A stretch of 64,000 nt of DNA from Lacibacter sp. H407. Its GTDB lineage: Bacteria; Bacteroidota; Bacteroidia; Chitinophagales; Chitinophagaceae. Shown piece after piece: positions 1,373 through 52,029 of this stretch (positions within the stretch are counted from its first letter, which is position 1; each line of letters opens with the position of its first letter). The notes beneath the pieces were generated by a model, which worked only from the letters and a program-made list of their open reading frames with translations, was not told the origin of the DNA and did no database searches. The DNA is taken from contig NZ_JBBKTU010000001.1 in assembly GCF_037892605.1 (NCBI RefSeq), positions 3,596,001 through 3,660,000 on the forward strand, in the 5' to 3' direction. The translations under genes were made by a program, and so were the position numbers.

Positions 1373-1388
1373 GTCCTGTTGTATCCTG
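1373..1388 (-). promoter_or_regulatory. Candidate PUL operator: 10-bp direct repeat facing the GH105 gene
   Basis: Read on the minus strand, the site is CAGGAT, four bases, then CAGGAC, so the two hexamers start exactly 10 bp apart. A TATAATTT-like stretch follows about 11 bp downstream, toward the GH105 start at 1314. The same arrangement recurs at 1483, 29312 and 32826, each time oriented with its downstream gene. Binding by a regulator is inferred. Confidence 0.5.
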
Positions 1389-1482
1389 AGTTCTTCAATT
1401 CCGGATATATAGAATGCTACGTAGTACACCTGCATGTATACAGGCACTGCTATAAAAAAACAATTTCGACCGTTTTTTGAAA

Positions 1483-1498
1483 CAGCATAGCACAGGAT
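1483..1498 (+). promoter_or_regulatory. Candidate PUL operator: 10-bp direct repeat facing the first SusC gene
   Basis: The site is CAGCAT, four bases, then CAGGAT; the first half differs from the consensus at one base. It ends 59 bp before the SusC start at 1558 and is followed by an A+T-rich stretch (around 1519-1527) that could hold the promoter -7 element. Together with the minus-strand copy at 1373-1388 it would let one factor control both divergent transcripts. Confidence 0.48.
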
Positions 1499-1557
1499 GG
1501 ATAAAGAATATACGTATTATAATTTTATGAGGTCTCTTAAAACCTAATTGCTGCTAT

Positions 1558-4500
1558 ATGACAAAAAAAAATGCACTGCACAGGTGTGTGATGGTCTGCC
1601 TGTGTTTTATTATCTCTTCCATCGCTTTTTCACAAAACACATTTAAAGTATCGGGTAAGGTAACGGATGACGCAGGTAATCCTGTGGCAGGTGCCAGCGT
1701 ACTGGTAAAAGGAACCAATATTGGAACCACAACCATTGCAGATGGTAGCTTTCAGTTAAGTGCACCTTCCGGTAAATCAATATTGATCTTTTCGTCCGTT
1801 GGATTTACGGATAAGGAGGTAAATATAAACGATCAGGGAACGGTTAATGTTAGCCTGGCTTCAGGCGCTTCCAACCTTCAGGATGTTGTTGTAGTTGGTT
1901 ATGGTACCCGTAAGAGAGTAGAAGTAACCGGTGCCACTTCATCTGTATCTGGCGAAAGATTACGGAATGTACAAACAGCCAATATTTCTACGGCAATGCA
2001 AGGCCAGATAGCCGGTGCAACGGTAACACAAAATTCGTTTCGTCCGGGCGGTGGTAGTTCTATCCGCATCAGAGGTAACCGATCACTCAGTGCCTCCAAC
2101 GAACCATTGGTTGTAGTTGATGGCTTTCCTGTTAGCTATACAATCGATGATATCAATCCTGCCGATATCGAAACGATCGATGTATTGAAAGATGCATCTG
2201 CAACCGCTGTATATGGTGTACGTGGCGCAAATGGTGTAATACAGATCACTACACGGAAAGGAAAAGCAGGGAAAATTTCTGTAAACTACCAGGGTAGCAC
2301 ATCGTTTGAAAGCATCATCCGTCAATTACCGATCTTTAATTCACAGGAATTAACTGACTCATGGCGCCAGGCTTTTTTTGCTGATCGCCAATATACACGT
2401 GACAGAGGTACCGCATCGGGTTCGAATCCATTATTTTATTATCCTACTGCAATAGCAGATGTAGCATTGTTCAGAAACAGGTTTGGCAGCGATGCACAAT
2501 GGAATGCAGTGAAAGATGCATACACATGGCTGGCTTACGATCCTGCAAACAATATTTTCATTGCTAAAAAACGTTTAGCTACTGCTCAGGAACGCCAGGT
2601 GATGATGAACCTTGGGCTCTCACAAGTAGACAGCGTAGATATGTACGATCCTTCAAAGATCACCAGCTTCGATTGGCAAAATGAAGTAGGTCTTCGTTTG
2701 GGACGAACAGATAACCACAATATATCTGTTACAGCCGGTAGCGAAAAGTTCAAAGCATCGTTCAATGCCGGTTACTTTAAACAAAAAGGTATTGAGTATG
2801 CACAGGATTATACTCGCTATTCAATTGGTAATTCGGTAGAGTTCAAACCTGTGAAGTTTCTCTCATTTGGTACAACTATCAATTATATTCATGCAATTAC
2901 CAACAGCAGTACCAGCTCATATGCAAATGCATCTGGTATGATACCAATGACCGTTCCTTACGATACAGCAGGGAATTGGATTTTATCTCCCAACAGAGAT
3001 CAACAGATCATAAGTGCTGTAAATGATCGCAACACTGTATTCGATGAAACAAAAGCCAATCGCTTTTTCGGAAATGTGTTTGCAGAAATCACCTTGCTGA
3101 AAGGATTAAAGTTCCGTACCATGTTTGGGTTGGATAGCCGCAATTCTGTTCGTGGCCAGTTCAATGGTGCACAGTCATCGATCCGTTTAGGAAGCCCTGC
3201 CAATGCAACACAAACAACTAATAATTCTTCATCATGGGTATATGATAATATCCTTACCTACAGCACACGTATTAAATCGGATCACTCTATTAATGTAACA
3301 TTGCTGCAGGAGTTGCAAAGTTTAAATCGTGCTTCCTCGTTATCAATGTCGGCGAACAACCTCATTTTCGAAGCACAAAAATGGTATTCGTTGCAACGTA
3401 ATACAGATGCAACAGTAACAGGATCAGGTTCGTTCTCTGCTACGCAATACATGTCGTATATGGGTAGGGTAGAGTATGGATTCAGAAATAAATATCTGCT
3501 TGCGATCAGTAACCGTTATGATAATTCTTCTGTGTTAGCAGAAGGAAATAAAGGAGCATGGTTCCCGGCCATTTCAGTTGGTTGGCAAATTGATAATGAA
3601 GATTTCATGACGAACATTCCTGTCATCAGCCGAGCTAAATTAAGAGCCGGTTATGGTACAGTGGGAAATGCGTCTATTCCTCCATATCAAACTGCCGGGC
3701 CTTTAGGCTTTACAAACTACAACTGGGGTAACGGCGTGGCAGCCATTGGTTCTGCACCCACTACATTCCAAACACCAAATCTGAGTTGGGAAAAAACAAC
3801 TACAACAAATATTGGTCTTGAATTCGGTTTATTTAAGAACAGAATTACCGGTGTAATTGATCTGTATAATTCAAGTACTACCGATCAGTTGCAGCGTCGT
3901 TCAATTCCTTCTGCAAATGGTGTTGACTTTGTGTATTTCAACTTAGGTGAAGTAAATAACAAAGGGGTTGAAATCACCATGAGCACGATGAACGTTGACA
4001 AAAAAGATTTCAAATGGACAACAGACCTCATGTTTACGTTGAACAGAGAAAAGATCGTTGACATCGACGGTAGTAACAACAGCAACTTTGCAAACCTTTG
4101 GTTGTTGGATCAACCACTTTCAGTGTATTGGGGTTTCCAGAAAGATGGCATTTTCCAATATGAAGATACCGTTGCAGGAAAAGGAATTCTTGCTACTTAT
4201 TACTGGCCAAAAAATGGTCGTAATAATGTGAACTATCAACCCGGACGGATAAAGATCATTGATGCAAATAAAGATTCTGCATTCAGTCCTGCTGATAGAA
4301 TTGTGTTAGGTTCACACAACCCTAATTTTATTGGAAGCATCACCAACACATTCACTTACAAAAATTTCGAACTTAATTTTATGGTGTATTTCCAGGTTGG
4401 TGGAATGTATCGTGTTCCACGTCCGGGATTAGTAGGCCGTTATCAGTCAAACAAAGTAAATTACTGGACGCCCACAAATCCCAGCAATGAATATCAGCAG

Positions 4501-4803
4501 CCAACACAAACAAGTGATATCCCGCTCAACTGGGAAGCACTTACGTATCGCACAGCCACCTTTGCACGTTTCAAAAATATAACGCTTACGTATCGTGTAC
4601 CCAGAAGCATTACTGATAAGTTACACATGGCCGGATTTGCAATTTACGCAAGTGCAGTGAACCCAATTCTCATACACAAACATTCCGATTACGATCCGGA
4701 AACTGTTCCTTATCGTGAATTTCCGGGAAGTACCACTAATCAGGTTGGACCTACCTCTTACAGTTTCAGAAGTTATGTAGTAGGGGTTCGTCTTGATTTG
4801 TAA
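1558..4803 (+). CDS. SusC/RagA-family TonB-dependent outer-membrane transporter (copy 1)
   Basis: At 1081 residues this has the usual SusC length. A signal peptide ends near SIAFSQ. Next comes a carboxypeptidase-like regulatory domain (about residues 29-105: VSGKVTDDAGNPVAGASV onward), then VVVGYGT and a plug domain whose end is marked by DASATAVYGVRGANGV and ITTRKG. The rest is the 22-stranded barrel, ending in an aromatic-poor VRLDL. SusC proteins import oligosaccharides through the outer membrane using TonB energy, with SusD acting as a lid. The SusD partner follows 30 bp downstream, and an operator-like repeat lies upstream. The transported glycan is probably a pectin fragment, judged only from the surrounding enzymes. 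Confidence 0.95.
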   Translation: MTKKNALHRCVMVCLCFIISSIAFSQNTFKVSGKVTDDAGNPVAGASVLVKGTNIGTTTIADGSFQLSAPSGKSILIFSSVGFTDKEVNINDQGTVNVSLASGASNLQDVVVVGYGTRKRVEVTGATSSVSGERLRNVQTANISTAMQGQIAGATVTQNSFRPGGGSSIRIRGNRSLSASNEPLVVVDGFPVSYTIDDINPADIETIDVLKDASATAVYGVRGANGVIQITTRKGKAGKISVNYQGSTSFESIIRQLPIFNSQELTDSWRQAFFADRQYTRDRGTASGSNPLFYYPTAIADVALFRNRFGSDAQWNAVKDAYTWLAYDPANNIFIAKKRLATAQERQVMMNLGLSQVDSVDMYDPSKITSFDWQNEVGLRLGRTDNHNISVTAGSEKFKASFNAGYFKQKGIEYAQDYTRYSIGNSVEFKPVKFLSFGTTINYIHAITNSSTSSYANASGMIPMTVPYDTAGNWILSPNRDQQIISAVNDRNTVFDETKANRFFGNVFAEITLLKGLKFRTMFGLDSRNSVRGQFNGAQSSIRLGSPANATQTTNNSSSWVYDNILTYSTRIKSDHSINVTLLQELQSLNRASSLSMSANNLIFEAQKWYSLQRNTDATVTGSGSFSATQYMSYMGRVEYGFRNKYLLAISNRYDNSSVLAEGNKGAWFPAISVGWQIDNEDFMTNIPVISRAKLRAGYGTVGNASIPPYQTAGPLGFTNYNWGNGVAAIGSAPTTFQTPNLSWEKTTTTNIGLEFGLFKNRITGVIDLYNSSTTDQLQRRSIPSANGVDFVYFNLGEVNNKGVEITMSTMNVDKKDFKWTTDLMFTLNREKIVDIDGSNNSNFANLWLLDQPLSVYWGFQKDGIFQYEDTVAGKGILATYYWPKNGRNNVNYQPGRIKIIDANKDSAFSPADRIVLGSHNPNFIGSITNTFTYKNFELNFMVYFQVGGMYRVPRPGLVGRYQSNKVNYWTPTNPSNEYQQPTQTSDIPLNWEALTYRTATFARFKNITLTYRVPRSITDKLHMAGFAIYASAVNPILIHKHSDYDPETVPYREFPGSTTNQVGPTSYSFRSYVVGVRLDL

Positions 4804-4833
4804 AAACATTATTCTAACAAAAAAACATTTGAT

Positions 4834-6810
4834 ATGTATAAATATTTCAAACAAACAGGAGTAATGCTGGCCCTTACATGTGTGGTGGTTGCTTCGTCCT
4901 GTAAGAAATTTATTGAAGAAGAACTGGTAACTACGCTTACTGAAGATTATTATAAAACAGATGCAGGATTGGAAGATCTTGTAAAATCGGCATACACACC
5001 ATTACAATGGTATTTTACCGGCGAGCAATCGTACTGCATGACCAATTTCGGAACCGATGAGTTTCGTGAAGGTGATCAGTTCAACAACGTACGCTATAAT
5101 GACTACGATGCGAATCTGAATTCCAATGATGCGTTTGTAAATGGATTGTGGACGAATAACTATGCAGGCATCCGCCGTTGTAATCAGGGAATTGAAATGA
5201 TCTCTGCGTTTAACGATCCATCATCACGTGTATTAGGAACACAAGCCCAAAAAGATCTGCGCATTGCAGAATTAAGAGCTTTACGTGGCTTGTTTTATTT
5301 GCAGATGGTAACACAGTTTGGAGGCGTGCCTTTAGTTACATCGGTACCAAAAGAACCGCAGTATGAATTTCCACGTGCTACAGTTGCGGAAGTTTATAAC
5401 CAGATCATCAGCGATTTTAAAGCGGCAGGACCGGGTTTGCCATGGCGTTATGCAGGTGCCGATCGTGGTCGTGCTACCCGTGCAATGGCGTATCATTTTC
5501 TTGCAAAAGCATATCTCACAAGAGGCAGTGCAGTAAGCGATCAGCGTGGACAAAAACCAACCGATATGGATAGTGTGATCTTTTTTGCCAATGATGTGAT
5601 CGCAAACAGCGGACATGCTTTGGAAGCTGATTATGGTAACCTGTTCAGTTCGGCTTATCCCGATGGAACCATTCCTTCGCTTGGACAAAACGGCTCTGTT
5701 CCTACAAGCAGCAAAGCAAAGATCGATGCCAACAATGCAAGCAATGAAATTATTTATGCTGCACAGTTCAGTTCAAACCTGAACCTTGCAGGTACAAATA
5801 ATCAAACACATATGTTCTACCCATCGGCTTACGATGCGGGTATTCCGGGTATGGCGAGGGATTTCTTTAACGGAAGACCTTTCAGAAGATTACGACCAAC
5901 AGATTACACCATTGATATTTACGACAAGATCAATGATTCACGTTTCTTTAAAAGTTTCCAGACAGCTTTCTACAGAAATGTGGCATCGAATGCAGGTCTT
6001 CCGGTGTTCACTGTTGCCAATGCTCCTGATCCAAGCCTGGTTGGTAAGCCACGTGTAGGAGTTGGTGATACAGCAGCTATCTACATCGTAAATCCGATCA
6101 ACATGCCGTTGCTTACATCAACCATTGCAAATATGCGTTACTACGCAACTTTTGCAAGGTATAAACAGGCAACAGCAGGTGGTGCCATTTCAACTGATTT
6201 TACAGGGAATAAATACCTGTCGCTTCTCAAGTTTGCAGACCCGATCCGTTTAACAACTACCAATAACGAAGCAAGAGGTATCCGCAACGGTACGTTTGCA
6301 CGTTTGGCGGATACATACCTGATGCTTGCAGAAGCATATGGCCGTAAAAACGATTATGCAAACGCTTTGTTTTATGTAAATGTATTGCGTACCCGGGCTG
6401 CTTACAAAGCCAATGAAGCTCGTAGTCCGCAGATCTGGCAATTTATGGGAGGGCCGAATACGTTAGCCAACACGACTGCCAACAACCAGGCAACACTTGA
6501 TCTGTTTACTACCAATGCAGCAAGTGAGAACTATCCGCCAACTGTAACTTCAACGTCAGCACGCTTCATTCATTTTATCTTAAATGAAAGAACACGTGAA
6601 TTATGTGGCGAGTTTTACCGTTGGGAAGACCTGGTTCGTACTGAAACTTTATATGACAGAACGAAGTTGTTTAACCTCGATGTAAGCCCATCGTTTGCAC
6701 AGTTCCATAAGCTGCGTCCAATACCATTGCTGCAAATGATCGCACAAACGGTGAATGGTCAGCCGATGTCGCAGGCAGATATGGCGGCTTATCAAAACCC
6801 AGGCTATTAA
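4834..6810 (+). CDS. SusD/RagB-family glycan-binding lipoprotein (copy 1)
   Basis: This 658-residue protein has a lipoprotein signal peptide with the lipobox cysteine at about residue 23 (VVVASSC-KK). The mature part has the helical TPR-like SusD fold. Recognisable marks are the F-x-N motif region early on, R-x-L-R-G-L-F-Y-L-Q-M-V (about 150) and the C-terminal N-E-R-T-R-E-L-C-G-E-F-Y-R-W-E-D-L motif (about 590). It would cap the SusC channel encoded just upstream and capture glycan at the cell surface. It is longer than the two other SusD proteins in this window (517 and 580 residues). A strong terminator follows at 6835, so the pair forms its own transcription unit with SusC copy 1. Confidence 0.93.
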   Translation: MYKYFKQTGVMLALTCVVVASSCKKFIEEELVTTLTEDYYKTDAGLEDLVKSAYTPLQWYFTGEQSYCMTNFGTDEFREGDQFNNVRYNDYDANLNSNDAFVNGLWTNNYAGIRRCNQGIEMISAFNDPSSRVLGTQAQKDLRIAELRALRGLFYLQMVTQFGGVPLVTSVPKEPQYEFPRATVAEVYNQIISDFKAAGPGLPWRYAGADRGRATRAMAYHFLAKAYLTRGSAVSDQRGQKPTDMDSVIFFANDVIANSGHALEADYGNLFSSAYPDGTIPSLGQNGSVPTSSKAKIDANNASNEIIYAAQFSSNLNLAGTNNQTHMFYPSAYDAGIPGMARDFFNGRPFRRLRPTDYTIDIYDKINDSRFFKSFQTAFYRNVASNAGLPVFTVANAPDPSLVGKPRVGVGDTAAIYIVNPINMPLLTSTIANMRYYATFARYKQATAGGAISTDFTGNKYLSLLKFADPIRLTTTNNEARGIRNGTFARLADTYLMLAEAYGRKNDYANALFYVNVLRTRAAYKANEARSPQIWQFMGGPNTLANTTANNQATLDLFTTNAASENYPPTVTSTSARFIHFILNERTRELCGEFYRWEDLVRTETLYDRTKLFNLDVSPSFAQFHKLRPIPLLQMIAQTVNGQPMSQADMAAYQNPGY

Positions 6811-6834
6811 TTAAACTAAAAACAGATATGTATT

Positions 6835-6867
6835 AAAGCTGTGTCGTATAACGACACAGCTTTTTTT
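6835..6867 (+). terminator. Rho-independent terminator after SusC/SusD pair 1
   Basis: A perfect 13-bp stem (AAAGCTGTGTCGT / ACGACACAGCTTT) closes on a 3-base loop (ATA) and runs into a T tract. It lies 25 bp after the SusD stop. Confidence 0.92.
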
Positions 6868-6965
6868 ATTGCCACCAATTTGGTTTCGGGAACGATTGCA
6901 TAAATAGTTCTTTCTTTCAGGATGGCACATGACGGTTGGGAGTTGGCACTACGGTAATTTAGTCC

Positions 6966-7005
6966 TGTCGTCAAAAATGGTATTGCTGATTACCGATTGA
7001 CGACA
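6966..7005. repeat. Nested inverted repeat in the 408-bp gap before the fasciclin gene
   Basis: TGTCGTCAA (6966-6974) is matched exactly by TTGACGACA (6997-7005). Inside these arms GGTA (6979-6982) can pair with TACC (6991-6994). The element sits about 215 bp before the next gene start. It could be an operator for a dimeric regulator or a leader hairpin. I see no credible gene in the rest of 6868-7218, which should contain the promoter for the fasciclin/SusCD block. Confidence 0.45.
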
Positions 7006-7218
7006 AATTGATTGCTTAACGAAAAGATTGCTGCTGTATATGACTCTTTTACCACAATTATCATTGCTTGCAGGGGCTTTGTTCCTCACCTCCCTTTTTT
7101 ATCAAACATACCTTTTTATCGCCTTTATACAACATCATCGCTGCGGCTCAGGCTGTTTGCAATGCATATATCTATCAAAAAGAAATTTTAATCAATCTGC
7201 CGGGAAATAATCACATTT

Positions 7219-9435
7219 ATGAAACAGATTTTTCTTTTACTAACTGTCACAACGATCCTGTTTTCATGTAGCAGGAAATTTGATGAATTCTATGCACGTC
7301 CTGATACATTGGAAGATCCCATCTATCAGCAGCTACAGGCAAAGGGTAAGTTTACACAATTGCTGAAAGTAATTGATAAGGCAGGTTACAAGAACACATT
7401 ATCGAACGCAGGTTACTGGACCTTGTTTGCGCCACACGATTCGGCCTTTACTGTGTATCTCACACAAAACAGTTTAAGCAGTGTAGATGCACTTGATTCA
7501 AATGCCTGTCGCAAAATTGTAACTTATTGCCTTGTGTACAATTCATTTAAGCAGGAGCGTATATCCGACTACCAGAGTAATTTGGGTTGGGTTGAAAATG
7601 CATCGTTCAAAAGAAGAACAGCAAATTACACCGGTATTTATGAAACAAAAAATACAACAGGAGCAAACATTAAGGCCATTGCATCAAACCGTAACAACAC
7701 GGGTGCTTTCTTTTATGTAGATGCAGATAATAACAATAAGTACCTCCCTATTTTTGAAACCGGGTTCATGACCGGTAAAACGTTGTCGGCATCCGACTAT
7801 AATTATTTCTATCCAAACTCAGTTTTTTCAGGCTTTAATGTAGCGGATGCAAAAGTGGTGGAGAAGGATATTCCTGCTGAGAATGGTGTGATCCATGTTG
7901 TTGACAGAGTAATTACTGCTTTGCCAAGCATTGATCAATACATTGGTGAAAATCCAAAGTACAGTGAATTTAAAAAACTGTTGGACAAGTTTCTTGTTCA
8001 GTATGTATTGAATGCAACTGTATCGCAGAACTATAAAAATATTTATGGTGTGTCTGCCGATATCTATACAAAAGTGTACAATTCAAATCTTGCGTTTTCA
8101 TTGAACAATGAAAACTTTCTGAAGCTGCAGGACAACGATGGGCAGTCAGATAGTTATACGATGTTTGTTCCTGAGAATGCTGCGTTACTCAGTTTTATTA
8201 ATGATGTATTGCTCGAGCATTATCCAAGTGTTGAAGCGTTACCGATCAATGTGATCTATGATTTTATGAATGCACATATGTGGCGCACTGCCGTTTGGCC
8301 TTCAAAATTTGCATCTACATTCAGTGCCGTTGGGGAAGAAGCAAGATTTAACCCAGCAACCGATATTACTGATAAAAAAGTATTGAGCAACGGTATCTTT
8401 TATGGTACCAACAAAGTGCAGGAAGCAAACGTGTTCAGCAGTGTGTATGGTAAAGCCTACCTGGATCCGAAGTATTCTATTATGACCAACCTGTTGAATC
8501 TTGACCTCAAATTCCAGATATCAAACATCAAACAGAAATTCACCTTGTTTCTCATCAGTAATCAGGCATTTAATGATGCTGGTTTCTTTGCTGATCCTAC
8601 AGTAAGTAATAACGTAAATGAACAATGGCGTTACATTCCCGCAGGTGGCGGCACACAACTCACAGGGTCATCTGCATTGGTTCGGTTACAACGTATTTTG
8701 AATATGCATGTAATTCCCGGAAGGGATATCACATCATTGGTTGCTCCGGGTGTTGGTTTGTCGTATTCCGGTGAATTCTTAAAATACCAAAACAATACCA
8801 TCGTTGCATCAGGTAATGGCGATGCAGGAACTGTTGCCAATATTGTTGAAACAAAAACGGCAAAGAACGGTACAGTTTATTATTTAGATAAGCTGTTACA
8901 ATTCAGTGAACGTACAATTGGTAAGCACATTGAAGCGTTGGGCACACCCACAACATCAGAGTACAATTCGTTCTGGCTTTATTTACGTAACTCGCCAATT
9001 TACAATGCTGCTACCGGTGAAATATTGCAGGTGGCTGCCGGTTCTTTCTACAGCTTTTTTATTCCTAATAAAGCAGCCATTTTAGCAGCTGTGAACGCAG
9101 GTTATTTACCGGGTACTGGTACTGCACCGAATAAAGTGCCGAAGTTTATTACAACCGTTCCTGCTGAAAGGGAGTTGATCGATAATTTCCTTTACTACCA
9201 CATACTCAACAAGAAAAATGTTGCAACTGATGGCGAGGAGAGCGGATCGTTTGAAACCATTTACAAGTTTTCCAATGGTGATCCGTCAACCATTTTCGTC
9301 AACAATACATCGCCCAACAATATGTTGCTGAATGATATGATGAACCGCAGCGCAAACGTAATCGTAAACCAAAGCAATCAGTTGAGCAATCGTTGTACCA
9401 TTCACCTCATTGATAACTACCTGAGATTTAAATAA
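7219..9435 (+). CDS. Fasciclin (FAS1) multi-domain surface lipoprotein
   Basis: This 738-residue protein has a short lipoprotein signal (MKQIFLLLTVTTILFSC, cysteine 17). It carries repeated FAS1-type segments. The first shows F-T-Q-L-L-K-V-I-D-K-A-G-Y with W-T-L-F-A-P-H-D-S-A-F near residues 50-75 and G-V-I-H-V-V-D-R-V near 225; later segments show TMFVPENAALLSFI and TLFLISNQAFNDAGF. FAS1 domains mediate adhesion or ligand binding. Placed between SusCD pair 1 and pair 2, it probably acts as a surface glycan-binding protein of the uptake system; that is inference from position and lipoprotein topology. It starts the second transcription block and ends 15 bp before SusC copy 2. Confidence 0.82.
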   Translation: MKQIFLLLTVTTILFSCSRKFDEFYARPDTLEDPIYQQLQAKGKFTQLLKVIDKAGYKNTLSNAGYWTLFAPHDSAFTVYLTQNSLSSVDALDSNACRKIVTYCLVYNSFKQERISDYQSNLGWVENASFKRRTANYTGIYETKNTTGANIKAIASNRNNTGAFFYVDADNNNKYLPIFETGFMTGKTLSASDYNYFYPNSVFSGFNVADAKVVEKDIPAENGVIHVVDRVITALPSIDQYIGENPKYSEFKKLLDKFLVQYVLNATVSQNYKNIYGVSADIYTKVYNSNLAFSLNNENFLKLQDNDGQSDSYTMFVPENAALLSFINDVLLEHYPSVEALPINVIYDFMNAHMWRTAVWPSKFASTFSAVGEEARFNPATDITDKKVLSNGIFYGTNKVQEANVFSSVYGKAYLDPKYSIMTNLLNLDLKFQISNIKQKFTLFLISNQAFNDAGFFADPTVSNNVNEQWRYIPAGGGTQLTGSSALVRLQRILNMHVIPGRDITSLVAPGVGLSYSGEFLKYQNNTIVASGNGDAGTVANIVETKTAKNGTVYYLDKLLQFSERTIGKHIEALGTPTTSEYNSFWLYLRNSPIYNAATGEILQVAAGSFYSFFIPNKAAILAAVNAGYLPGTGTAPNKVPKFITTVPAERELIDNFLYYHILNKKNVATDGEESGSFETIYKFSNGDPSTIFVNNTSPNNMLLNDMMNRSANVIVNQSNQLSNRCTIHLIDNYLRFK

Positions 9436-9450
9436 ACTAACTATCAAACA

Positions 9451-12723: not shown

Positions 12724-12769
12724 TTTAAATAAGGCAGCAATAAGCCTTCATACATTATAAAAACAGCAG

Positions 12770-14323: not shown

Positions 14324-14336
14324 CTGAAACAAGTAT

Positions 14337-16028: not shown

Positions 16029-16076
16029 AAAACAATATCCGATCGACCGGAACAACAAAAAAATAAATTATCAGAA

Positions 16077-17516: not shown

Positions 17517-17543
17517 ATGAGAGAAATTTAAAAGATATTCGTA

Positions 17544-20729: not shown

Positions 20730-20780
20730 TCAAAAACGAACTGTTAACTAATTATAAGAATCTTAAACAGAACTTCAGTT

Positions 20781-22523: not shown

Positions 22524-22553
22524 ATTGGTTTTTGGCAAGCAATCAATCAATAG

Positions 22554-22585
22554 AAAAGGGCAGGAGATAAGCGACCTGTCTTTTT
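22554..22585 (+). terminator. Probable terminator after SusC/SusD pair 3
   Basis: AAAAGGGCAGG and CCTGTCTTTTT can pair (with one G-T wobble) around a 10-base loop and end in a T run. It lies 31 bp after the SusD stop. Confidence 0.6.
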
Positions 22586-22592
22586 CATTTAA

Positions 22593-22616
22593 ACGATATT
22601 TTACGATTCGTTACGA
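22593..22616 (+). promoter_or_regulatory. Three ACGA elements at 10-bp spacing before the GH105/acetylesterase pair
   Basis: ACGAT, ACGAT and ACGAA begin at 22593, 22603 and 22613, one helical turn apart. A short CCCGA/TCGGG hairpin follows at 22635-22650. The unit precedes the gene at 22695 by about 80 bp. The geometry resembles the CAGGAT repeats at other PUL promoters although the sequence differs. Function as an operator is inferred. Confidence 0.3.
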
Positions 22617-22694
22617 AATCGATTAAGTTGAATACCCGATTCTATTCGGGAAAGACATAATATATTTAGCGTATAAACAAGAAACCAAATTGCC

Positions 22695-24047: not shown

Positions 24048-24050
24048 TAA

Positions 24051-25385: not shown

Positions 25386-25401
25386 TGTGATAGCAAAGCA
25401 T

Positions 25402-25432
25402 AAAAAAGGAAAGAGAAACTCTTTCCTTTTTT
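25402..25432. terminator. Bidirectional terminator between convergent genes
   Basis: A perfect 14-bp stem (AAAAAAGGAAAGAG / CTCTTTCCTTTTTT) with a 3-base loop has an A tract on one side and a T tract on the other. It can end transcription from both the acetylesterase (plus) and the GH2 gene (minus). Confidence 0.9.
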
Positions 25433-25467
25433 ATTAATACACTTTAAGTATCAACTTATCATTTGAA

Positions 25468-27867
25468 TTACTTTGTTGAAAGTTTTACCTCAGCCGGTTT
25501 AAATCCAGCAGCTGTCACTTTTACTTGTACCGTTCCTGCTGTTTGTGTTGAACGTAAAATAGCCATAGCAAACCCTTTGTATAAAACTTTCTTATTGCCG
25601 CTGAATAAATCATCACTTGAATGATCGCCATTATCCACCGCAAGTAAAGTTGCTGCGCCATTCACTTCAAATGTAAGTTCACCTGTTGCTGTAGCCACTT
25701 TGTTTCCTTTGCTGTCAACAGCGTAAACTTTTACGTATTGCAGATCCATACCATCAGCTTTCCAGTTTGTATTTTCGGTTTCTATTTTTAATGCAACAGC
25801 TTTACCGGTTGTTTCCAATTCATGACGGGCAACTTCTTTGCCACCGTTTCTTGCAATAGCAGTGATCTTGCCTGCAGCGAAGGGAATATCTTTCCAGTAA
25901 ATGGTATTGCGCTTTTTAACGTCTGTACTGTTCTTTTGTACGCCAATCAATTTTCCATTGATCAATAGTTCAACTTCATCGGCATTGGTATAAGTGTAGA
26001 GATTATATTTTTGTCCTTCCTGACGATTCCAATGCGATGAAATAACTTTTTGTCCAACGATCTGATCGTTCCACATCTTCATTTCGCCTTCGCTATCAAC
26101 AATGCCGATATGCACCAAGGGCTCATCTGTAAAAATGCTTTTTGTTAACCATGCTTGTGGAAATGGTTCCATTGAATGATTGAAGAACGAATAGTTCCAA
26201 CCTTTCCTTGGCCAGCCCTGCGATTCGCCCCAATATTCAATGCCTCCCCAATACGCAAGACCAACCATTTTCTCTCTGTCCATTCCGAAGTAAGGAGCAG
26301 CTAACTCATTCGTTACAGCCTCACTTTGATAAACGATCATATCGGGTGCATGTTTCAGGTACTCCTGGTAATCTTCCCATGTATAATTAAAACTGGCGAT
26401 ATCGGTTACGGTTGCTAATTCGGGTGGAACGATATTTTCTTTAACACGAAAATCCGGATCGGCACGAATGATACCTCCTGCACGTGCAGGGTACATGGCA
26501 ACAGTTGTTTTACGGGTAGGGTCGTAGCGTTTTGCAACTACATCCATAATCTTATACGTAGTAACACCCCAATCAGTTGTTGGCCAGTTCCAGCGTTCTT
26601 CCTGGAATTGTAATTCATTGCCGAAGCTCCACATGATAACAGAAGGATGATTGCGGTCACGCTTGATCCATTCTTTGATGTTGTTGTACCAGATGTCATT
26701 CCAGTGGGCATTTCCTGCCCATGCAGTTTTGCTGCCCCATTTATCATACAATTCATCAACAATTAATATTCCTTTTTCATCAGCCAGTTTCATAAATGAT
26801 GCTGAGTAAGGATTGTGCGAAGTACGGATATGATTAAAGCCAAATGCTTTTAATTGATCCATCATCCTTGCAATCGAAGTTTCAAAAGCTGCTGCACCTA
26901 CAGCGCCAAGGTCATGATGATTGGCAACACCTTTCAGAAAAACTTTCTTTCCATTTAATTTCATTCCAAATTCTTTGGAGAACTCAATGGTACGGATGCC
27001 AAATTTCTCCGTGAGCTTGTCAACCACTTTGCCATTTACGACCAATGAAACTTCTGCTGAATAAAGATGAGGCGTTTCGCAACTCCAAAGCTGCGGGTTA
27101 GAGATGTTAACCTTTGGCAATGCAACTTCCACTTCAACCAATTTTGATTTTTGCGGAGCGAATATTTTTGTTTCAGCAACTTGTTTGCCCTGCGGGTCAA
27201 TGATTTTGGTAATGATCTCTAATGCAATTTGTTTGTTCTTTATTCCTGCCACTTCTACCTGCACACTTACTTCGGCATTACGATCAGTGATTTTTGGAGT
27301 AGTGATAAACACACCATGACGTGCAATAGAAATACTGTCTTTTACAACAAGATGCACATCACGAAAAAGTCCGCCACCAGTGTACCATCGTGAACCACCA
27401 TCTGTAGAAGAACGAACAGCAACTATATTGTCAGCATCATATTTAATGTTATCTGCTATATCAGCTTCAAAACCAACATAGCCATAAGCCGTGCCGCCGA
27501 TTTTCTTCCCATTTAACCAGACTTCGCCATGCAGCATAATGCCTTCAAAATCGAGCAACACTCTTTTGCCTTTCCATGCTGCATCAGCTTTAAAAGTTTT
27601 CCGATACCAACCAATGCCATTTGTTTTAAACCCACGACCTCGATTAGCCGAACTATCCCAAGGTTGCTCAAACTGAAAATCGTGTGGCAGATCGAGTTTG
27701 CGCCAATCAGCATCATTGAACGAAATTTGTTGAGCGTTTGAAATATCGCCTGCTTTAAATTTCCAGCCGAAATTAAAAAGTTGATTGATTCTAACAGGAG
27801 CATTGTTGTTTTGTCCAAAGAGAATTGTGGCGAAACAGAAAGCAATAATCGTTGACAATAATTTCAT
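25468..27867 (-). CDS. GH2 beta-galactosidase-like enzyme
   Basis: From the start chosen at 27867 the protein has 799 residues and opens with a signal peptide (MKLLSTIIAFCFATILFGQ); an upstream in-frame start at 27915 would put 16 residues before the signal and is less likely. Order of parts: sugar-binding domain (FNFGWKFKAGD, PHDFQFEQPWD), immunoglobulin-like linker, TIM barrel with the acid/base glutamate in IMWSFGNELQ and the nucleophile in VYQSEAVTNE, then two C-terminal beta domains. The likely substrate is beta-galactoside side chains of rhamnogalacturonan I, given the neighbours, but GH2 also includes glucuronidases and others. Its short leader contains competing hairpins (27870-27902). 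Confidence 0.88.
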   Translation of the reverse strand: MKLLSTIIAFCFATILFGQNNNAPVRINQLFNFGWKFKAGDISNAQQISFNDADWRKLDLPHDFQFEQPWDSSANRGRGFKTNGIGWYRKTFKADAAWKGKRVLLDFEGIMLHGEVWLNGKKIGGTAYGYVGFEADIADNIKYDADNIVAVRSSTDGGSRWYTGGGLFRDVHLVVKDSISIARHGVFITTPKITDRNAEVSVQVEVAGIKNKQIALEIITKIIDPQGKQVAETKIFAPQKSKLVEVEVALPKVNISNPQLWSCETPHLYSAEVSLVVNGKVVDKLTEKFGIRTIEFSKEFGMKLNGKKVFLKGVANHHDLGAVGAAAFETSIARMMDQLKAFGFNHIRTSHNPYSASFMKLADEKGILIVDELYDKWGSKTAWAGNAHWNDIWYNNIKEWIKRDRNHPSVIMWSFGNELQFQEERWNWPTTDWGVTTYKIMDVVAKRYDPTRKTTVAMYPARAGGIIRADPDFRVKENIVPPELATVTDIASFNYTWEDYQEYLKHAPDMIVYQSEAVTNELAAPYFGMDREKMVGLAYWGGIEYWGESQGWPRKGWNYSFFNHSMEPFPQAWLTKSIFTDEPLVHIGIVDSEGEMKMWNDQIVGQKVISSHWNRQEGQKYNLYTYTNADEVELLINGKLIGVQKNSTDVKKRNTIYWKDIPFAAGKITAIARNGGKEVARHELETTGKAVALKIETENTNWKADGMDLQYVKVYAVDSKGNKVATATGELTFEVNGAATLLAVDNGDHSSDDLFSGNKKVLYKGFAMAILRSTQTAGTVQVKVTAAGFKPAEVKLSTK

Positions 27868-27869
27868 GT

Positions 27870-27902
27870 TCGGAATGATTTTCCGAAAGGTAGATTTCGG
27901 AA
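27870..27902 (-). promoter_or_regulatory. Alternating complementary arms in the leader of the GH2 gene
   Basis: In transcript order the leader reads TTCCGAAA (27902-27895), a 6-base spacer, TTTCGGAA (27888-27881), 4 bases, TTCCGAA (27876-27870), two bases, ATG. The middle arm can pair perfectly with either outer arm. Pairing with the third would bury the start codon region; pairing with the first would free it. It could instead be a double operator on DNA. No known riboswitch was recognised. Confidence 0.5.
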
Positions 27903-27933
27903 ATACAAATACCATGAATTTGCTTTATCAAAA

Positions 27934-27997
27934 CCTGTTCAAAGTAGTGAACAGTATAAGTGCCTGCAAATCATAAGTGAACAAGAAGAATGAACAA
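27934..27997. promoter_or_regulatory. Cluster of TGAACA elements upstream of the GH2 gene
   Basis: CTGTTCA (27934-27940) and TGAACAG (27947-27953) form a perfect 7-bp inverted repeat with a 6-bp spacer. TGAACAAG recurs at 27977-27984 and 27990-27997. The cluster lies between the GH2 gene and the regulator gene, in the region expected to hold the GH2 promoter. Regulatory function is inferred. Confidence 0.4.
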
Positions 27998-28038
27998 GGC
28001 GAAACTGCAGATTATTGACGTTATTGAATACAGTTCTT

Positions 28039-29280
28039 TTAAAAACGATAGATCGTATTCCCGTCATACGATTTGAGTTCGCAGGTTTTTACAACTCCTG
28101 TTCCTTCAAACTCAAGGAATAAACCGCTGATGTTACCCAATGATTTTTGGTAAGAGCCGGTGAAGATTTGTTTGCCATTTACATACAGGCTGACCTGCTT
28201 TTGATGATTCACCAGCTTTACAGTAGTCCATTGGCTGAGGTCGAGCACAAATTGCGAAAGATCGTTTGTTGCTCCTTTGAATATTTGTTCACTCACTATA
28301 TTCAACACCCGTTGACTGCAGCCTGCATTCACCCATCTGAACCTGATCATACTGTTGCTACCAGAAATTTGAAACTGTGTGCTGCGGCAGAAAATACCTT
28401 TTTCCTGAATATGATTTTTAAAGGTTGTTTCGAATATGAAATCATCAGCAGTTTGATTAACGGGCGTGTAATTCGAAAGCCTTGTCAAAACAGGGCCGGT
28501 AGTATCCAGCCCAAGTTGAAACAATTTATTGTTGGTAACATTGAACAAACTGTCGCTGCCCGTCTTAACAACAGGGAGCGCATAAAAATGAACAGGTATA
28601 TCATCCTGGCGATGACATCCAAAAGCGATCCAGTTGTCAGACTTTATATAAGCACTGGTAGTTGCGAATGTTTGCTGCCGGGTTTGAAGTGATGCGTTAA
28701 ATACACCGGGTATATAATAGATGTGTCCTGTACTTTTTTCACCCGGCTTAATATATAGTAACGGCGATTTATCACCGAAGTTGACAAACAGGCTATCCTT
28801 TGTGTCTGGTAATTGCAGTTCAAACACAACAGTAGCAGGTAAAAGTCCTTCGGTACGTGTAATCTTGATGGAGCCCGACATGCTTTTGGGTTTCCAATAA
28901 CGCCAGGTCAGTAACGCTAAGATTACAATACTAAGCGCAACTATAGGTAGTAACAGCTTATATCGCTTGAAACTTTCTTTGTTCAACGCATTGGGTTGTA
29001 AGAAAGAGGGCGGTGCTTGTTGTGCGTTTTCAAGCTCAGTGAAGTTCCCGTATTTTTTTAATGCATCAACGGTAGCCTGCTGCGGAATATAATCGTCATC
29101 AACAGATACTTTGCCAAATATCCTTTTCAGCGTGCTCGGGCTTATGTTAACATTGGTATCTCGAAGAATCTCCCGGCTCAGATCACTGAAATCTCCATGC
29201 TTCCAATGAATGGAAGCTCCACGGTTAAAGCGGTTTTCACAACAGCGAAATATATCATCCAGTTTTGCCTTTTTGCTCAT
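28039..29280 (-). CDS. Membrane-spanning one-component regulator with a LamG-like periplasmic domain
   Basis: This 413-residue protein has three parts. Residues 1-90 form a helical cytoplasmic domain with W-K-H-G-D-F-S-D-L-S and I-S-P-S-T-L-K-R-I-F-G-K-V (46-58), a pattern I associate with a Bacteroidota-restricted helix-turn-helix-like family. Residues 108-126 are a single transmembrane helix flanked by K/R. The rest is exported: a PKD-like beta domain (about 140-215) and a concanavalin/LamG-like domain (about 240-413, with VKLVNHQKQVSLYVNGKQIF). There is no kinase or receiver domain. The topology suggests a glycan sensor that contacts DNA directly, like ToxR or CadC. It is transcribed away from the GH39 operon, next to a candidate operator at 29312. 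DNA binding by the N-terminal domain is not proven. Confidence 0.65.
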   Translation of the reverse strand: MSKKAKLDDIFRCCENRFNRGASIHWKHGDFSDLSREILRDTNVNISPSTLKRIFGKVSVDDDYIPQQATVDALKKYGNFTELENAQQAPPSFLQPNALNKESFKRYKLLLPIVALSIVILALLTWRYWKPKSMSGSIKITRTEGLLPATVVFELQLPDTKDSLFVNFGDKSPLLYIKPGEKSTGHIYYIPGVFNASLQTRQQTFATTSAYIKSDNWIAFGCHRQDDIPVHFYALPVVKTGSDSLFNVTNNKLFQLGLDTTGPVLTRLSNYTPVNQTADDFIFETTFKNHIQEKGIFCRSTQFQISGSNSMIRFRWVNAGCSQRVLNIVSEQIFKGATNDLSQFVLDLSQWTTVKLVNHQKQVSLYVNGKQIFTGSYQKSLGNISGLFLEFEGTGVVKTCELKSYDGNTIYRF

Positions 29281-29311
29281 CGAAACAAATATAGAGTAAA
29301 TTAAAAAGTAA

Positions 29312-29327
29312 CAGGACTGTACAGGAT
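29312..29327 (+). promoter_or_regulatory. Candidate PUL operator: 10-bp direct repeat before the GH39 operon
   Basis: CAGGAC and CAGGAT start exactly 10 bp apart. The site lies in the divergent region between the putative regulator gene and the GH39 operon and is followed by A+T-rich promoter-like sequence (29340-29380). Confidence 0.5.
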
Positions 29328-29417
29328 AACTGTTCGCTCTATAACCCTTTACTTTATATGCTGTTTAAATGCTGTATAAAAATGAGAATCCTCCAAACGG
29401 TTGCTCCGCTGTTCGTA
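29312..29417 (+). repeat. Copy A of a duplicated promoter plus first codons
   Basis: This stretch matches 32826-32930: the CAGGA repeats, then TTTACTTTA, CTGTTTAAA and GCTGTATAAA, an ATG (29382), and codons for a signal-peptide start (MRILQTVAPLF versus MKFLTTVALLF). After about 12 codons the similarity stops. The reading frame from 29382 stays open into the GH39 gene. Confidence 0.7.
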
Positions 29418-29477
29418 CATTCATGCTCCTGCCATTTCCCGATTTTATTGAGGCGATTCAATTCTAAAAGAAATACG

Positions 29478-31139
29478 ATGAAACTATTGCTGATTGCTTT
29501 GCTGATCTCTTCTTCTGCTTTTGCTCAAACAGCAACCATCAATGTTGATCTGAAAAAAGAAACAGGTGACATGACGCCTGTATGGGCATGGTTTGGTTAT
29601 GATGAACCAAACTATACTTACATGAAAGATGGCAAGAAACTTTTGTCAGAGATCGCTGCACTAAGCCCCGTGCCCGTTTATGTACGAGCACATAGTTTAT
29701 TGGTAACAGGTGATGGAGTGGCCGCATTAAAATGGGGAAGCACCAATGCATATACTGAAGATGCAAACGGTCATCCCATTTACAACTGGAAAATCATTGA
29801 CAGTATTTTTGATACGTATGTGCAACGTGGAATGAAACCGTTGGCGCAAATTGGTTTTATGCCCGAAGCATTATCAACCAATCCGCAACCATATAAACAT
29901 GATTGGAAACCCGGTGATCCTTATTTCAAGATCATTACTGGTTGGGCATATCCACCAAAAGATTATAGCAAATGGGCCGAGTTGGTTTTTCAATGGGTAA
30001 AGCATAGTGTAGAACGTTACGGACAAAAAGAAGTAGAGAGCTGGTATTGGGAATTATGGAACGAGCCGAATGGTTACTGGAAAGGAACAAAAGATGAATT
30101 CTTTAAACTATACGATTATACAGCCGATGCAGTAAAGCGTGCATTGCCCACTGCAAAAATCGGCGGTATCAATATTGCGGGCACTGCAAGCAAAGGTGCA
30201 CAGGAGTGGCTGCATGCATTTGTAAAACATTGTTACAGCGATACGAATTATGTTACAAAGAAAATAGGTTCACCTGTTGATGCTATTTTGTTTCATGCAA
30301 AAGGTTCGCCACGTGTTGTGAATGGTCATGTGCAGATGAATATGGGAACACAGTTAAGAGATATTAATGCAGGGTTTAAATTTGTTGCATCGTATCCGCA
30401 GTTAAAAAATCTTCCCATCATCATTGGAGAATCTGATCCGGAAGGTTGTGCTGCATGTGGAATGCACACCAACCCGGAAAATGCATATCGTAACGGTACG
30501 ATGTTCTCCAGTTACACCGCAGCTTCTTTTGCACGCAAATATTTATTGGCCGATTCGTTCAACGTAAATTTTCTCGGCGCCGTATCATGGGCATTTGAAT
30601 TTGAAAATCAACCCTGGTTCTATGGATTTCGTGATTTGGCAACAAACGGTGTAGATAAACCGGTGCTGAATGTGTTTCGCATGTTTGGTATGATGAAAGG
30701 AAAAAGATTAGTGGTACAAGGCAACCAGATGTACGATCTGAAAACAATGGTTGATTCAAGTGTAAGAAGAAAGTATAATGATGTTGGTGGATTGGCTGCG
30801 AAAGACAAACGTTCAGCAACTGTACTATTGTGGAATTATCATGATGATGATGTAAAGAATGCCGCATTACCTGTTGCAGTAAACATCAACGGATTACCAG
30901 CAGCAACTGTAACAGTTACAGAATACCGCATTGATGATGAGCACAGCAATTCATACGAAGTGTGGAAGAAAATGGGTTCACCACAAAACCCGACAAAAGA
31001 ACAGATTGCGATATTAGAAAAAGCAGGACAGTTAAAAACAATCGGTGCATCGAAGAAATTGAAAGTAACAAATGGAGTGTTGAACATAAAACTATCATTA
31101 CCACAGCAAGGAGTAAGCTTGTTGAAATTAGATTGGTGA
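29478..31139 (+). CDS. GH39-family glycoside hydrolase
   Basis: The start at 29478 gives a 553-residue protein with a clean signal peptide (MKLLLIALLISSSAFAQ). The frame is open upstream to 29382 and 29358, where the codons derive from a duplicated copy of the lyase gene start at 32895. The TIM barrel has the acid/base E196 in WNEPN and the likely nucleophile E318 in IIIGESDPEG, as in GH39 beta-xylosidases and related enzymes. A C-terminal beta-sandwich follows from about residue 420. GH39 includes several pentose- and uronic-acid-directed activities, so the substrate is uncertain; pectin side chains are likely from context. It is first in the plus-strand enzyme operon, with 19 bp to the next gene. 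Confidence 0.85.
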   Translation: MKLLLIALLISSSAFAQTATINVDLKKETGDMTPVWAWFGYDEPNYTYMKDGKKLLSEIAALSPVPVYVRAHSLLVTGDGVAALKWGSTNAYTEDANGHPIYNWKIIDSIFDTYVQRGMKPLAQIGFMPEALSTNPQPYKHDWKPGDPYFKIITGWAYPPKDYSKWAELVFQWVKHSVERYGQKEVESWYWELWNEPNGYWKGTKDEFFKLYDYTADAVKRALPTAKIGGINIAGTASKGAQEWLHAFVKHCYSDTNYVTKKIGSPVDAILFHAKGSPRVVNGHVQMNMGTQLRDINAGFKFVASYPQLKNLPIIIGESDPEGCAACGMHTNPENAYRNGTMFSSYTAASFARKYLLADSFNVNFLGAVSWAFEFENQPWFYGFRDLATNGVDKPVLNVFRMFGMMKGKRLVVQGNQMYDLKTMVDSSVRRKYNDVGGLAAKDKRSATVLLWNYHDDDVKNAALPVAVNINGLPAATVTVTEYRIDDEHSNSYEVWKKMGSPQNPTKEQIAILEKAGQLKTIGASKKLKVTNGVLNIKLSLPQQGVSLLKLDW

Positions 31140-31158
31140 TGATCATAAATTACAAATC

Positions 31159-32544
31159 ATGAAACAGATTTTTATCATTGCAGCAGTATGTATGTCGATG
31201 TGTGCATCTGCACAGATTGGCAAACGTTTTCCTTCTGAACGGAAAGAAGTGATCGATCCTATTACAGGAACAAAACTGTTGTTCTTAACAAGCACTCCTG
31301 CAGGCGATTCAAAAATTTATCAAACACATAATCAATGGACAAGTGATGGAGAGTGGCTCATCTTCCGCAGCAACCGTGCAAGAAATGAAGCATTGGCTGT
31401 GAATGAAAAAACAGGCGACATGGTGCAGGTAACAGAAGGGGGTTATATGGGTATGTTGAATGTGGCTCGCAAAAGCATGAAGTTATATTTTATGCGTTCA
31501 TCACAACGGGATAGTGTAAGAAGAACTCCCGGCGATACAACCCGCAGAAGAAATCCTGTTCCATTACAAATCATTGAAGTTGATCTCGCAAAAGTATTTG
31601 CTGATAGTAAAGCAGGCAAGATGCAACCTGCACATATTTATCAACGTATTTGCGGAACAATTCCGTTAGAACTCGAAGGTGGTGGTGATATGGCATTGGA
31701 TGGTGATGAAGAGTGGGCTTATTTCCGTGTTGGCAAAAATGCAGCAGCAAAACATTTGGCAGCAGGCACAAAACCGGCCGATAATTTCGGGCCACGTAAT
31801 ATGGGTGCAGGACCAAACGGTATTGCAGCGATGAATGTATTTACAGGCGAAATAAAATATGTAGTTTCTGTTCCGTTTCAGATCGGACATATACAAACCA
31901 ATCCATGGATGCCCGGTGAAATTGTGTTTTGTTGGGAAACAGGTGGTAAGTCGCCACAACGTACCTGGACGGTGATGAGTGATGGTACCGGTCTTCGTCC
32001 ATTGTATCCTGAAGCAGATTACGAATGGGTAACACATGAAGCAGTAATTGGAAAAGATGAAGTGGCAATAGCGATCATGGGTCACCGTAAGATTCCCGGC
32101 AGCAATAAAGAAGTAGCGGCAGGTACAGATGTTGGCGGTGCTAATCCCGGGCAAGATCCTGCATGGGGCCCAAGCGGTACAAGAGAAAAACCAACAGGTC
32201 TTGCTATTGTGAATCTTCGTACAAGAGAAACCATTATTGCAGGACAAACAAAAAGCGGCAGTGGTTTGTGGCATGTGAGTGGATCGCCTGATGGACGTTG
32301 GGCAGTAGGTGATGATTTTACAAGAAACATTTATCTGATTGATCGGCATACAAGTGAAATGATCTTGTTATCAACAGGGCATAAGGTAACAGCAGGTGAT
32401 CATCCGCATCCAACGATGAGTCCGGATGGAACAAAAATTCAGATCCAGTCAGCCATGTTATCGGCTGATGGTCGATCAATGAACATTTGTATTATTCCTG
32501 TACCTGAGGCATGGTTGAAGAGAACGTATAATAAAGTGAGATAA
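31159..32544 (+). CDS. Oligogalacturonate lyase-like (PL22-type) beta-propeller protein
   Basis: This 461-residue secreted protein (signal peptide MKQIFIIAAVCMSMCASAQ) is built of repeated WD40/TolB-like blades: SDGEWLIFRSNRARNEALAV near residue 70, GSPDGRWAVGDD near 376 and HPTMSPDGTKIQIQSAM near 415. The blade pattern and the F-R-S-N-R motif fit oligogalacturonate lyase relatives. Conserved histidines expected to bind the metal may include those in GHIQTNPW (about 236), WVTHEAV (about 293) and HPHPT. Classical PL22 enzymes cleave unsaturated digalacturonate. This protein diverges from its neighbour at 32895, so it may have another substrate. It is co-oriented in the GH39 operon. Confidence 0.65.
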   Translation: MKQIFIIAAVCMSMCASAQIGKRFPSERKEVIDPITGTKLLFLTSTPAGDSKIYQTHNQWTSDGEWLIFRSNRARNEALAVNEKTGDMVQVTEGGYMGMLNVARKSMKLYFMRSSQRDSVRRTPGDTTRRRNPVPLQIIEVDLAKVFADSKAGKMQPAHIYQRICGTIPLELEGGGDMALDGDEEWAYFRVGKNAAAKHLAAGTKPADNFGPRNMGAGPNGIAAMNVFTGEIKYVVSVPFQIGHIQTNPWMPGEIVFCWETGGKSPQRTWTVMSDGTGLRPLYPEADYEWVTHEAVIGKDEVAIAIMGHRKIPGSNKEVAAGTDVGGANPGQDPAWGPSGTREKPTGLAIVNLRTRETIIAGQTKSGSGLWHVSGSPDGRWAVGDDFTRNIYLIDRHTSEMILLSTGHKVTAGDHPHPTMSPDGTKIQIQSAMLSADGRSMNICIIPVPEAWLKRTYNKVR

Positions 32545-32624
32545 AAAAGAATTACTGTCGATTAAATGAAGCCGAAAAGCCGATAAAATAAGTACATTGC
32601 GGCCCTGAAATATTCCATGTTCTT

Positions 32625-32825
32625 ATGCGAAAGGTCATTAATCCGAGATTATTTACGCTGGCATTGACCATTATTGCTTTGGAGTGCACGATGGTTTGGC
32701 ATCGTGCAAAGCTGCCATTCAATGTTGCGTACGTTATCATTGTCGTGAATTTCCTCTACTTTAACTTCATCTTTTTTCCCGATGTACGGAGAAGGTACCG
32801 TGCACTAAAGCAAACCGGCAAATAG
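32625..32825 (+). CDS. Possible small two-helix membrane protein
   Basis: This is a 66-residue frame in the 350-bp space between the two lyase-like genes. It encodes two hydrophobic stretches (LFTLALTIIALECTMVW and NVAYVIIVVNFLYFNFIFF) ending in a basic tail (RRRYRALKQTGK), a plausible small membrane protein with a positive C-terminus. No family was recognised and there is no strong ribosome-binding site. It could be a chance frame. Confidence 0.35.
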   Translation: MRKVINPRLFTLALTIIALECTMVWHRAKLPFNVAYVIIVVNFLYFNFIFFPDVRRRYRALKQTGK

Positions 32826-32841
32826 CAGGATTGTGCAGGAT
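32826..32841 (+). promoter_or_regulatory. Candidate PUL operator: perfect 10-bp direct repeat before the PL22 gene
   Basis: Two identical CAGGAT hexamers start 10 bp apart, each preceded by G. This is the best copy of the motif in the window. TAGCTTTA (32858-32865) follows 16 bp later and resembles the Bacteroidota -7 promoter element TAnnTTTG. The gene starts at 32895. Confidence 0.55.
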
Positions 32842-32930
32842 ACTCTACATTCTTTTATAGCTTTACTTTAAAGGCTGTTTAAAAGCTGTATAAAATGAAA
32901 TTTCTCACAACGGTTGCTCTGCTGTTCGCT
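32826..32930 (+). repeat. Copy B of a duplicated promoter plus first codons
   Basis: This is the counterpart of 29312-29417. Here the first codons belong to the intact PL22 gene signal peptide, so this is probably the source copy. Confidence 0.68.
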
Positions 32931-41962: not shown

Positions 41963-41975
41963 TGCAAACTGTATT

Positions 41976-41990
41976 AGCCGACCCCGGGAG
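41976..41990 (+). repeat. Left REP half-palindrome of the transposase element
   Basis: GCCGACCCCGGGAG matches the right arm of the REP palindromes at 42589 and 46472 and the sequence at the left edge of the remnant at 53563-53780. It marks the 5' boundary of the element carrying the gene at 42019. Confidence 0.6.
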
Positions 41991-42018
41991 TAAGAATACG
42001 TTTTTTGTATCTTTCATT

Positions 42019-51930: not shown

Positions 51931-52029
51931 AGAACATTCCGGTTTAACAAAATAATTCTCCCGTAACAGTACAGGATGTTCCTTTCTCCCAACAGCATTA
52001 TTTTTATCCGATTGCTAAAAGCACGCTGT

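Follow-up and report, generated by a model that had tools for sequence, protein, structure and literature searches.

The promoters of the pectin/RG-I PUL in a Lacibacter genome share an operator made of two hexamers in direct repeat, CAGGAY-N4-CAGGAY, which start 10 bp apart and point towards the gene that they precede, and which recur, in the mixed form CAKGAY (CAGGAY or CATGAY half-sites), at the promoter of the rhaT-led rhamnose catabolic operon. These repeats are probably the operator of a rhamnose/RG-I regulon, in which P0002, a GntR-type protein with a LacI/AraR-type sugar sensor, would bind the tandem CAKGAY units and activate both rhamnose catabolism and the RG-I PUL. The window, i.e., the whole stretch of DNA that was analysed, covers 64,000 nucleotides of a Lacibacter-type member of the Chitinophagaceae, whose closest PL22 relatives are L. 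luteus and L. cauensis (94%), and its features are listed in Table 1 together with those found outside it.

Table 1. Operators, target genes and candidate binding proteins (window positions, unless marked as genome positions).
Feature	Position	Strand	Operator sequence	Distance and -7 box	Remarks
Operator	1373-1388	-	CAGGATACAACAGGAC	21 bp, TAACATTG	drives GH105/GH88-type gene and leftward operon
Operator	1483-1498	+	CAGCATAGCACAGGAT	21 bp, TAATTTTA	drives SusC and SusD (4834-6810)
Operator	6918-6933	+	CAGGATGGCACATGAC	21 bp, TAATTTAG	mixed half-sites; before fasciclin gene and second SusC/D operon
Operator	29312-29327	+	CAGGACTGTACAGGAT	21 bp, TTACTTTA	drives GH39
Operator	32826-32841	+	CAGGATTGTGCAGGAT	21 bp, TTACTTTA	drives PL22, then GH106/GH29/GH43/GH28 genes
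Degenerate operator	51962-51977	+	CGTAACAGTACAGGAT	N21, TATTTTTA	first half degenerate; drives GH28
Operator before GH115	genome 3661856 (window-equivalent 65856)				exact; just outside window
Operator before another GH28	genome 3677919 (window-equivalent 81919)				exact; just outside window
rhaT operator	genome 3581383		CATGATAGTACATGAC	N21, TAATTTTA	15 kb upstream
GH88/GH105-type unsaturated glycosidase	187-1314	-			target
SusC-like TonB-dependent receptor	1558-4803	+			target
Fasciclin-domain lipoprotein-like gene	7219-9435	+			target
GH39	29358-31139	+			target; start probably 29382
PL22 oligogalacturonate lyase	32895-34136	+			target
GH28	51976-53547	+			target; start codon probably near 52030 rather than 51976
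P0001	28039-29280	-			413 aa; N-terminal helical domain with HTH-like stretch LSREILRDTNVNISPSTLKRIFGK, one TM helix, PKD-like and LamG-like outer part
P0002	genome 3580234-3581265				GntR winged helix fused to LacI/AraR-type sugar sensor; divergent from rhaT

The original prediction described four hexamer pairs in the window, and all four are present with the positions and orientations it gave, the first hexamer at 1483-1498 being one base off. The set is larger than this list, as it also takes in the site at 6918-6933 and those before GH115, the second GH28 gene and rhaT, while the lone half-site that had been reported before the GH28 gene (51972) turns out to belong to a complete site, at 51962. 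The divergent pair formed by the first two operators is kept in five other genomes (G001, G003, G004, G007 and G010), and the 16-mer CAGGATGGCACATGAC is identical at the corresponding sites of four other genomes of the same genus (G001, G003, G007 and G010). The GH39 and PL22 promoters can be aligned over approximately 110 bp, into the coding start (29300-29420 versus 32814-32934, including the signal-peptide starts), and because they are alignable copies, their two operators are not independent sites. This likeness may reflect a recent duplication or conversion of the promoter.

Taken alone, the window is weak evidence, with nine matches at up to two mismatches against 4.07 expected, a number reached by 2 of 100 shuffles, and it is the genome and its relatives that settle the reality of the motif. 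The 4.87-Mb genome contains five exact matches to CAGGAY-N4-CAGGAY, all of which fall between 3597373 and 3677934, i.e., within 81 kb or less at the pectin/RG-I locus, and none to the reversed control pattern. Allowing one mismatch adds 50 matches, mostly scattered, so the exactness of the motif matters. The pattern CAGGAT-N19-24-TAnnTTT was rejected for genome-wide searches as too unspecific (53 matches).

The spacing was examined in 80 related loci (1.36 Mb) which were retrieved with the PL22 protein as the only query, irrespective of the motif, a set that leans to pectin loci by design, as the genome-wide scans do not. In these loci, CAGGAY-Nk-CAGGAY has 60 matches at k = 4, all of them non-coding, and between zero and five at each of the other spacings (k = 0-30), whereas inverted arrangements stay at the background level of 0-3, with no enrichment. 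A second set includes loci fetched with a 21-bp pattern and is thus partly circular, and its reversed-pattern control is contaminated, given that CAGGAC fits both patterns; the blind PL22 set was used in its place as the clean test. The scans thus bear out a directional 10-bp direct repeat common to PUL promoters, as originally predicted, which is kept at orthologous promoters.

The logo of 55 distinct sites reads DCAGGAYRSNDCAGGAYRV, with the -7 box at +37 to +44, and the bases ahead of the first half-site are not conserved. In 46 of the 55 sites, a box that agrees with TAnnTTTR at five or more of six positions stands 20 or 21 bp downstream, as against 0-3 sites for any other offset. It had been proposed that A+T-rich promoter-like sequence follows the repeats after 11-21 bp; a promoter element is indeed there, but its placement is not loose, the -7 box standing exactly 21 bp away at all six sites of the window. 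In addition, some promoters carry arrays of four to five tandem units (in locus L121, 10, 11, 11 and 10 bp apart, and in G028), and even there 21 bp separate the last unit from the box, an arrangement that speaks for identical subunits stacked head to tail. Such arrays of half-sites stand before SusC/fasciclin operons at L121 15315-15362 and L233 9593-9677.

Given that the -7 box mapped in flavobacteria occupies -12 to -5 (PMC9723704), a distance of 20-21 bp would place the operator at -49 to -34, with its centre at -41.5. With the transcription start taken from the flavobacterial -7 position, this is where a class II activator is expected to bind, in keeping with the earlier proposal of an activator that touches RNA polymerase. 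At class II promoters, such as those of CRP and the pho box of PhoB, the operator is centred at approximately -41.5 and stands in for the upstream promoter element, and the PhoB sites are tandem repeats as well. These systems differ from the present case in their protein families and, for PhoB, in a period of 11 bp rather than 10 bp, while the sigma factor here is that of the Bacteroidota.

All of the targets in the PUL region belong to pectin/RG-I degradation (GH105/88-type, SusC/D, fasciclin with SusC/D, GH39, PL22, GH28 and GH115), and in the relatives the operator also precedes genes of PL11 rhamnogalacturonan lyase, GH28 and carbohydrate esterases. It is not an operator of pectin PULs alone, given that one of seven clustered CAGGAY sites in the genome G032 precedes a rhaT-led rhamnose operon, which led to the finding of the site at the rhaT promoter of the Lacibacter genome, between rhaT and the divergent P0002 gene. 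Nine genomes (G000, G001, G003, G007, G010, G011, G012, G018 and G023) have CATGAY-N4-CATGAY or the mixed CAGGAT-N4-CATGAC before this operon, 21 bp from the box, the mixed sites of G001, G003, G007 and G010 reading CAGGATAGTRCATGAC. The CATGAY pair of G029 is about 20 bp from the box, and CATGAY pairs also precede rhaT in L121, G030 and G036. Since CAGGAY and CATGAY half-sites occur together within single sites (rhaT, 6918), the two forms are most likely recognised by one and the same protein. In G013 (L243/L281), the operator at 1449-1464 (minus strand), between GntR and rhaEW, has its nearest -7-like box at approximately 31 bp, one helical turn further out.

The N-terminus of P0002 matches the GntR HTH PF00392 with 33.8 bits (cut-off 27) and the HTH of AraR (4egy) with E = 1.8e-6, while its C-terminus matches Peripla_BP_3 with E = 1.1e-5, just under the cut-off; the PDB structures that match its AlphaFold model (pLDDT 91.5) include LacI-family regulators and the effector domain of AraR (3tb6). 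An operator lies 400 bp or less upstream of the P0002-homolog gene in 12 of 24 homologous loci, facing the divergent gene in all 12, where 360 permuted hexamers gave a mean of 0.05 and a maximum of 1. Degenerate sites at the loci of G016 and G017 are also 21 bp from the box. Across 61 genomes, the counts of P0002 homologs against strict operators are 14/6/3/38, with six P0002-positive genomes having no strict operator (Fisher 8e-7; p = 0.002 within the family only and 0.016 within the genus only, shared ancestry being ignored throughout), and in G015 the operator is accompanied by a homolog of 26% only. The regulator genes found 10 kb or less from PL22 in the PL22 loci are GntR and LacI cases only. 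A second GntR-like match, at 726288 in G000, seemed a perfect phylogenetic fit, but it is a genuine LacI protein and is not linked to the operator.

In the proposed mechanism, P0002, a cytoplasmic protein, most likely binds two or more CAKGAYRS units that follow one another head to tail, spaced by one turn of the helix, and the unit nearest to the promoter would sit in the -33 region. This position, centred at about -41.5, argues that P0002 most likely activates transcription through contact with RNA polymerase. The trigger would be L-rhamnose, or a breakdown product, that arrives in the cytoplasm from RG-I, upon which P0002 would turn on the uptake and catabolism of rhamnose jointly with the PUL genes named above and, in the relatives, PL11.

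That the same GntR/LacI-type protein acts instead as a repressor, which covers the -33 region and is freed by rhamnose, is unlikely, even though its best-known relatives, AraR of B. subtilis and NanR of E. coli, act as repressors, NanR has a direct repeat, (GGTATA)3, as its binding site (PMC8012715), and the operator does overlap this region. A repressor has no need of the near-invariant distance to the -7 box (20-21 bp in 46 of 55 sites), and there is no sign of a TTTG -33 element next to the operator, although such elements are weak in the phylum (PMC7366714). The membrane protein P0001, which had been put forward as the regulator, has an HTH-like N-terminal sequence, a TM helix and outer domains that resemble carbohydrate-binding ones, and its start is 32 bp from the GH39 operator. 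Nevertheless, homologs of it are lacking in G001, G010 and G011, all of them rich in operators, G007 has no more than a paralog of 29% identity, and none of the 80 PL22 loci contains it. Missing from genomes that keep the operator, P0001 is already strongly disfavoured as the binder, a role that it is most improbable to have, and P0002 is the better candidate. P0001 has no Pfam or NCBIfam assignment; its one close ortholog occupies the corresponding position in G003, and four further homologs are distant (26-30%). It looks like a membrane-anchored regulator, and may belong to a small family of one-component regulators bound to the membrane.

It is also rather improbable, somewhat more so than repression by the same protein, that a regulator from a different family (HTCS/AraC, OmpR/PhoB-type or DeoR), not linked to these genes, binds the repeats while the GntR protein at rhaT is incidental or acts elsewhere. 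Head-to-tail repeats with a 10-11-bp period are typical of OmpR/PhoB proteins, which counts for such a regulator, and six genes of this family are found in the Lacibacter genome, none of them near the locus. Similar 10-11-bp repeats are typical of the DeoR-family RhaR (PMC3870299), and operators are present in G004 and G030, both incomplete MAGs (92% and 98%), where no P0002 homolog was detected. However, the operator specifically adjoins the GntR gene; there is no DeoR-HTH match near the locus in the Lacibacter genome, and G011, which has operators, has only a weak one. Nor is there any AraC/HTCS gene at 3556-3709 kb, and the HTCS near the locus in G003 and G007 belongs to another SusC/D locus and is missing there in G000, G001, G010 and G011.

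The known systems each share part of this arrangement. The AraR of the Firmicutes arabinose regulon has the domain plan of P0002, a GntR wHTH with a LacI-type sensor, and ties the catabolism of a monosaccharide to polysaccharide-degrading genes in the same manner as the proposed regulon, although the two sensors have the fold alone in common (14% identity in the structural match). On the other hand, AraR represses from palindromic sites, unlike the tandem direct repeats at -41.5, and the palindrome expected of AraR-like regulators does not appear here, where 60 direct matches stand against 0-3 inverted ones. That GntR/AraR-type proteins usually have palindromic sites and usually repress (PMC4494728) counts against P0002 as the binder and as an activator. 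Direct repeats are already known for the GntR-type proteins NanR, FarR, NagQ and MocR. NanR uses such a wHTH on direct repeats, but with a spacing of roughly half a turn and as a repressor (PMC8012715), and the MocR-type GabR and TauR also bind direct repeats, with members that can activate a divergent operon, but through an aminotransferase sensor and other half-sites (PMC5320631).

The DeoR-family RhaR regulons resemble the present one in their 10-11-bp direct repeats, multiple tandem units and rhamnose genes, with rhamno-oligosaccharide genes co-regulated (Rodionova 2013, PMC3870299). This RhaR belongs, however, to a protein family other than that of P0002, has the half-site TCGAAA in Chloroflexus, is a repressor in R. 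leguminosarum, and its regulons are not described in Chitinophagaceae (PMC3870299); a linked DeoR-family regulator is absent here, while the repeat itself agrees. In Bacteroides, HTCS_Rgu-1 and HTCS_Rgu-2 have direct-repeat operators at the promoters of rhamnogalacturonan PULs, but with repeats 20-21 bp apart, and the signal is sensed in the periplasm by a hybrid two-component system whose gene is part of the locus, while SusR-like repeats are 67 or 77 bp apart (PMC3878776). Both the HTCS period of approximately 21 bp and the SusR-like spacings differ from the 10 bp observed here, no HTCS gene lies in or beside the PUL of the Lacibacter genome, and the RhaR of B. thetaiotaomicron, an AraC protein, has one operon as its only target (PMC3878776). 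The open-access literature yielded no description of this operator, of the regulon in Chitinophagaceae or of a GntR rhamnose regulator there, and does not contradict the earlier statement that no operator of such form has been described for pectin PULs.

Several further features were observed in the same loci. The sequence (A)TTGCTGTAT/GCTGTATAA recurs directly 5' of the ATG in most operator-driven genes (e.g., 1300-1330, 1545-1557, 29370-29381 and 52015-52030), also in other genera, and may be an element of the translation start or of the 5'-UTR in bacteria without Shine-Dalgarno sites. Behind the divergent operator pair, the SusC of G003 (L210 8592-11699) is only 38% identical to that of the window (1558-4803), whereas the genes on the other side of the pair are approximately 90% identical, which points to a swap of SusC/D with the operator kept. 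Between the rhamnosidase and GH28 genes, the segment 47046-51726 encodes two unassigned proteins and an AAA_21/AbiEii-like ATPase, a possible mobile or defence insertion, and a REP-associated transposase-like ORF (41962-42579) is found near it. Finally, a gene with a PycTM Pycsar effector domain (PF18967) at 59702-60919 (minus strand) may be an anti-phage gene within the PUL region.

More tentatively, and somewhat less probably than the regulon itself, P0002 may represent an AraR-type GntR/LacI chimera turned class II activator, with the tandem CAKGAY repeats replacing the -33 element. Such a regulon, which would sense a cytoplasmic sugar and join rhamnose catabolism to the whole RG-I PUL in the Chitinophagaceae and neighbouring families, would stand against the periplasmic HTCS sensing of the pectin PULs of Bacteroides. 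The regulation of PULs in soil Bacteroidota is largely unknown beyond the HTCS, SusR and sigma/anti-sigma models from gut Bacteroides, and an operator with a fixed promoter geometry, which is found in many genera, before single genes as well as in arrays of four to five units, makes RG-I/rhamnose regulons readable from genomes and points to a regulator for loci that have none of their own. It also raises the mechanistic question of how a GntR-type protein would activate from direct repeats with the Bacteroidota sigma factor.
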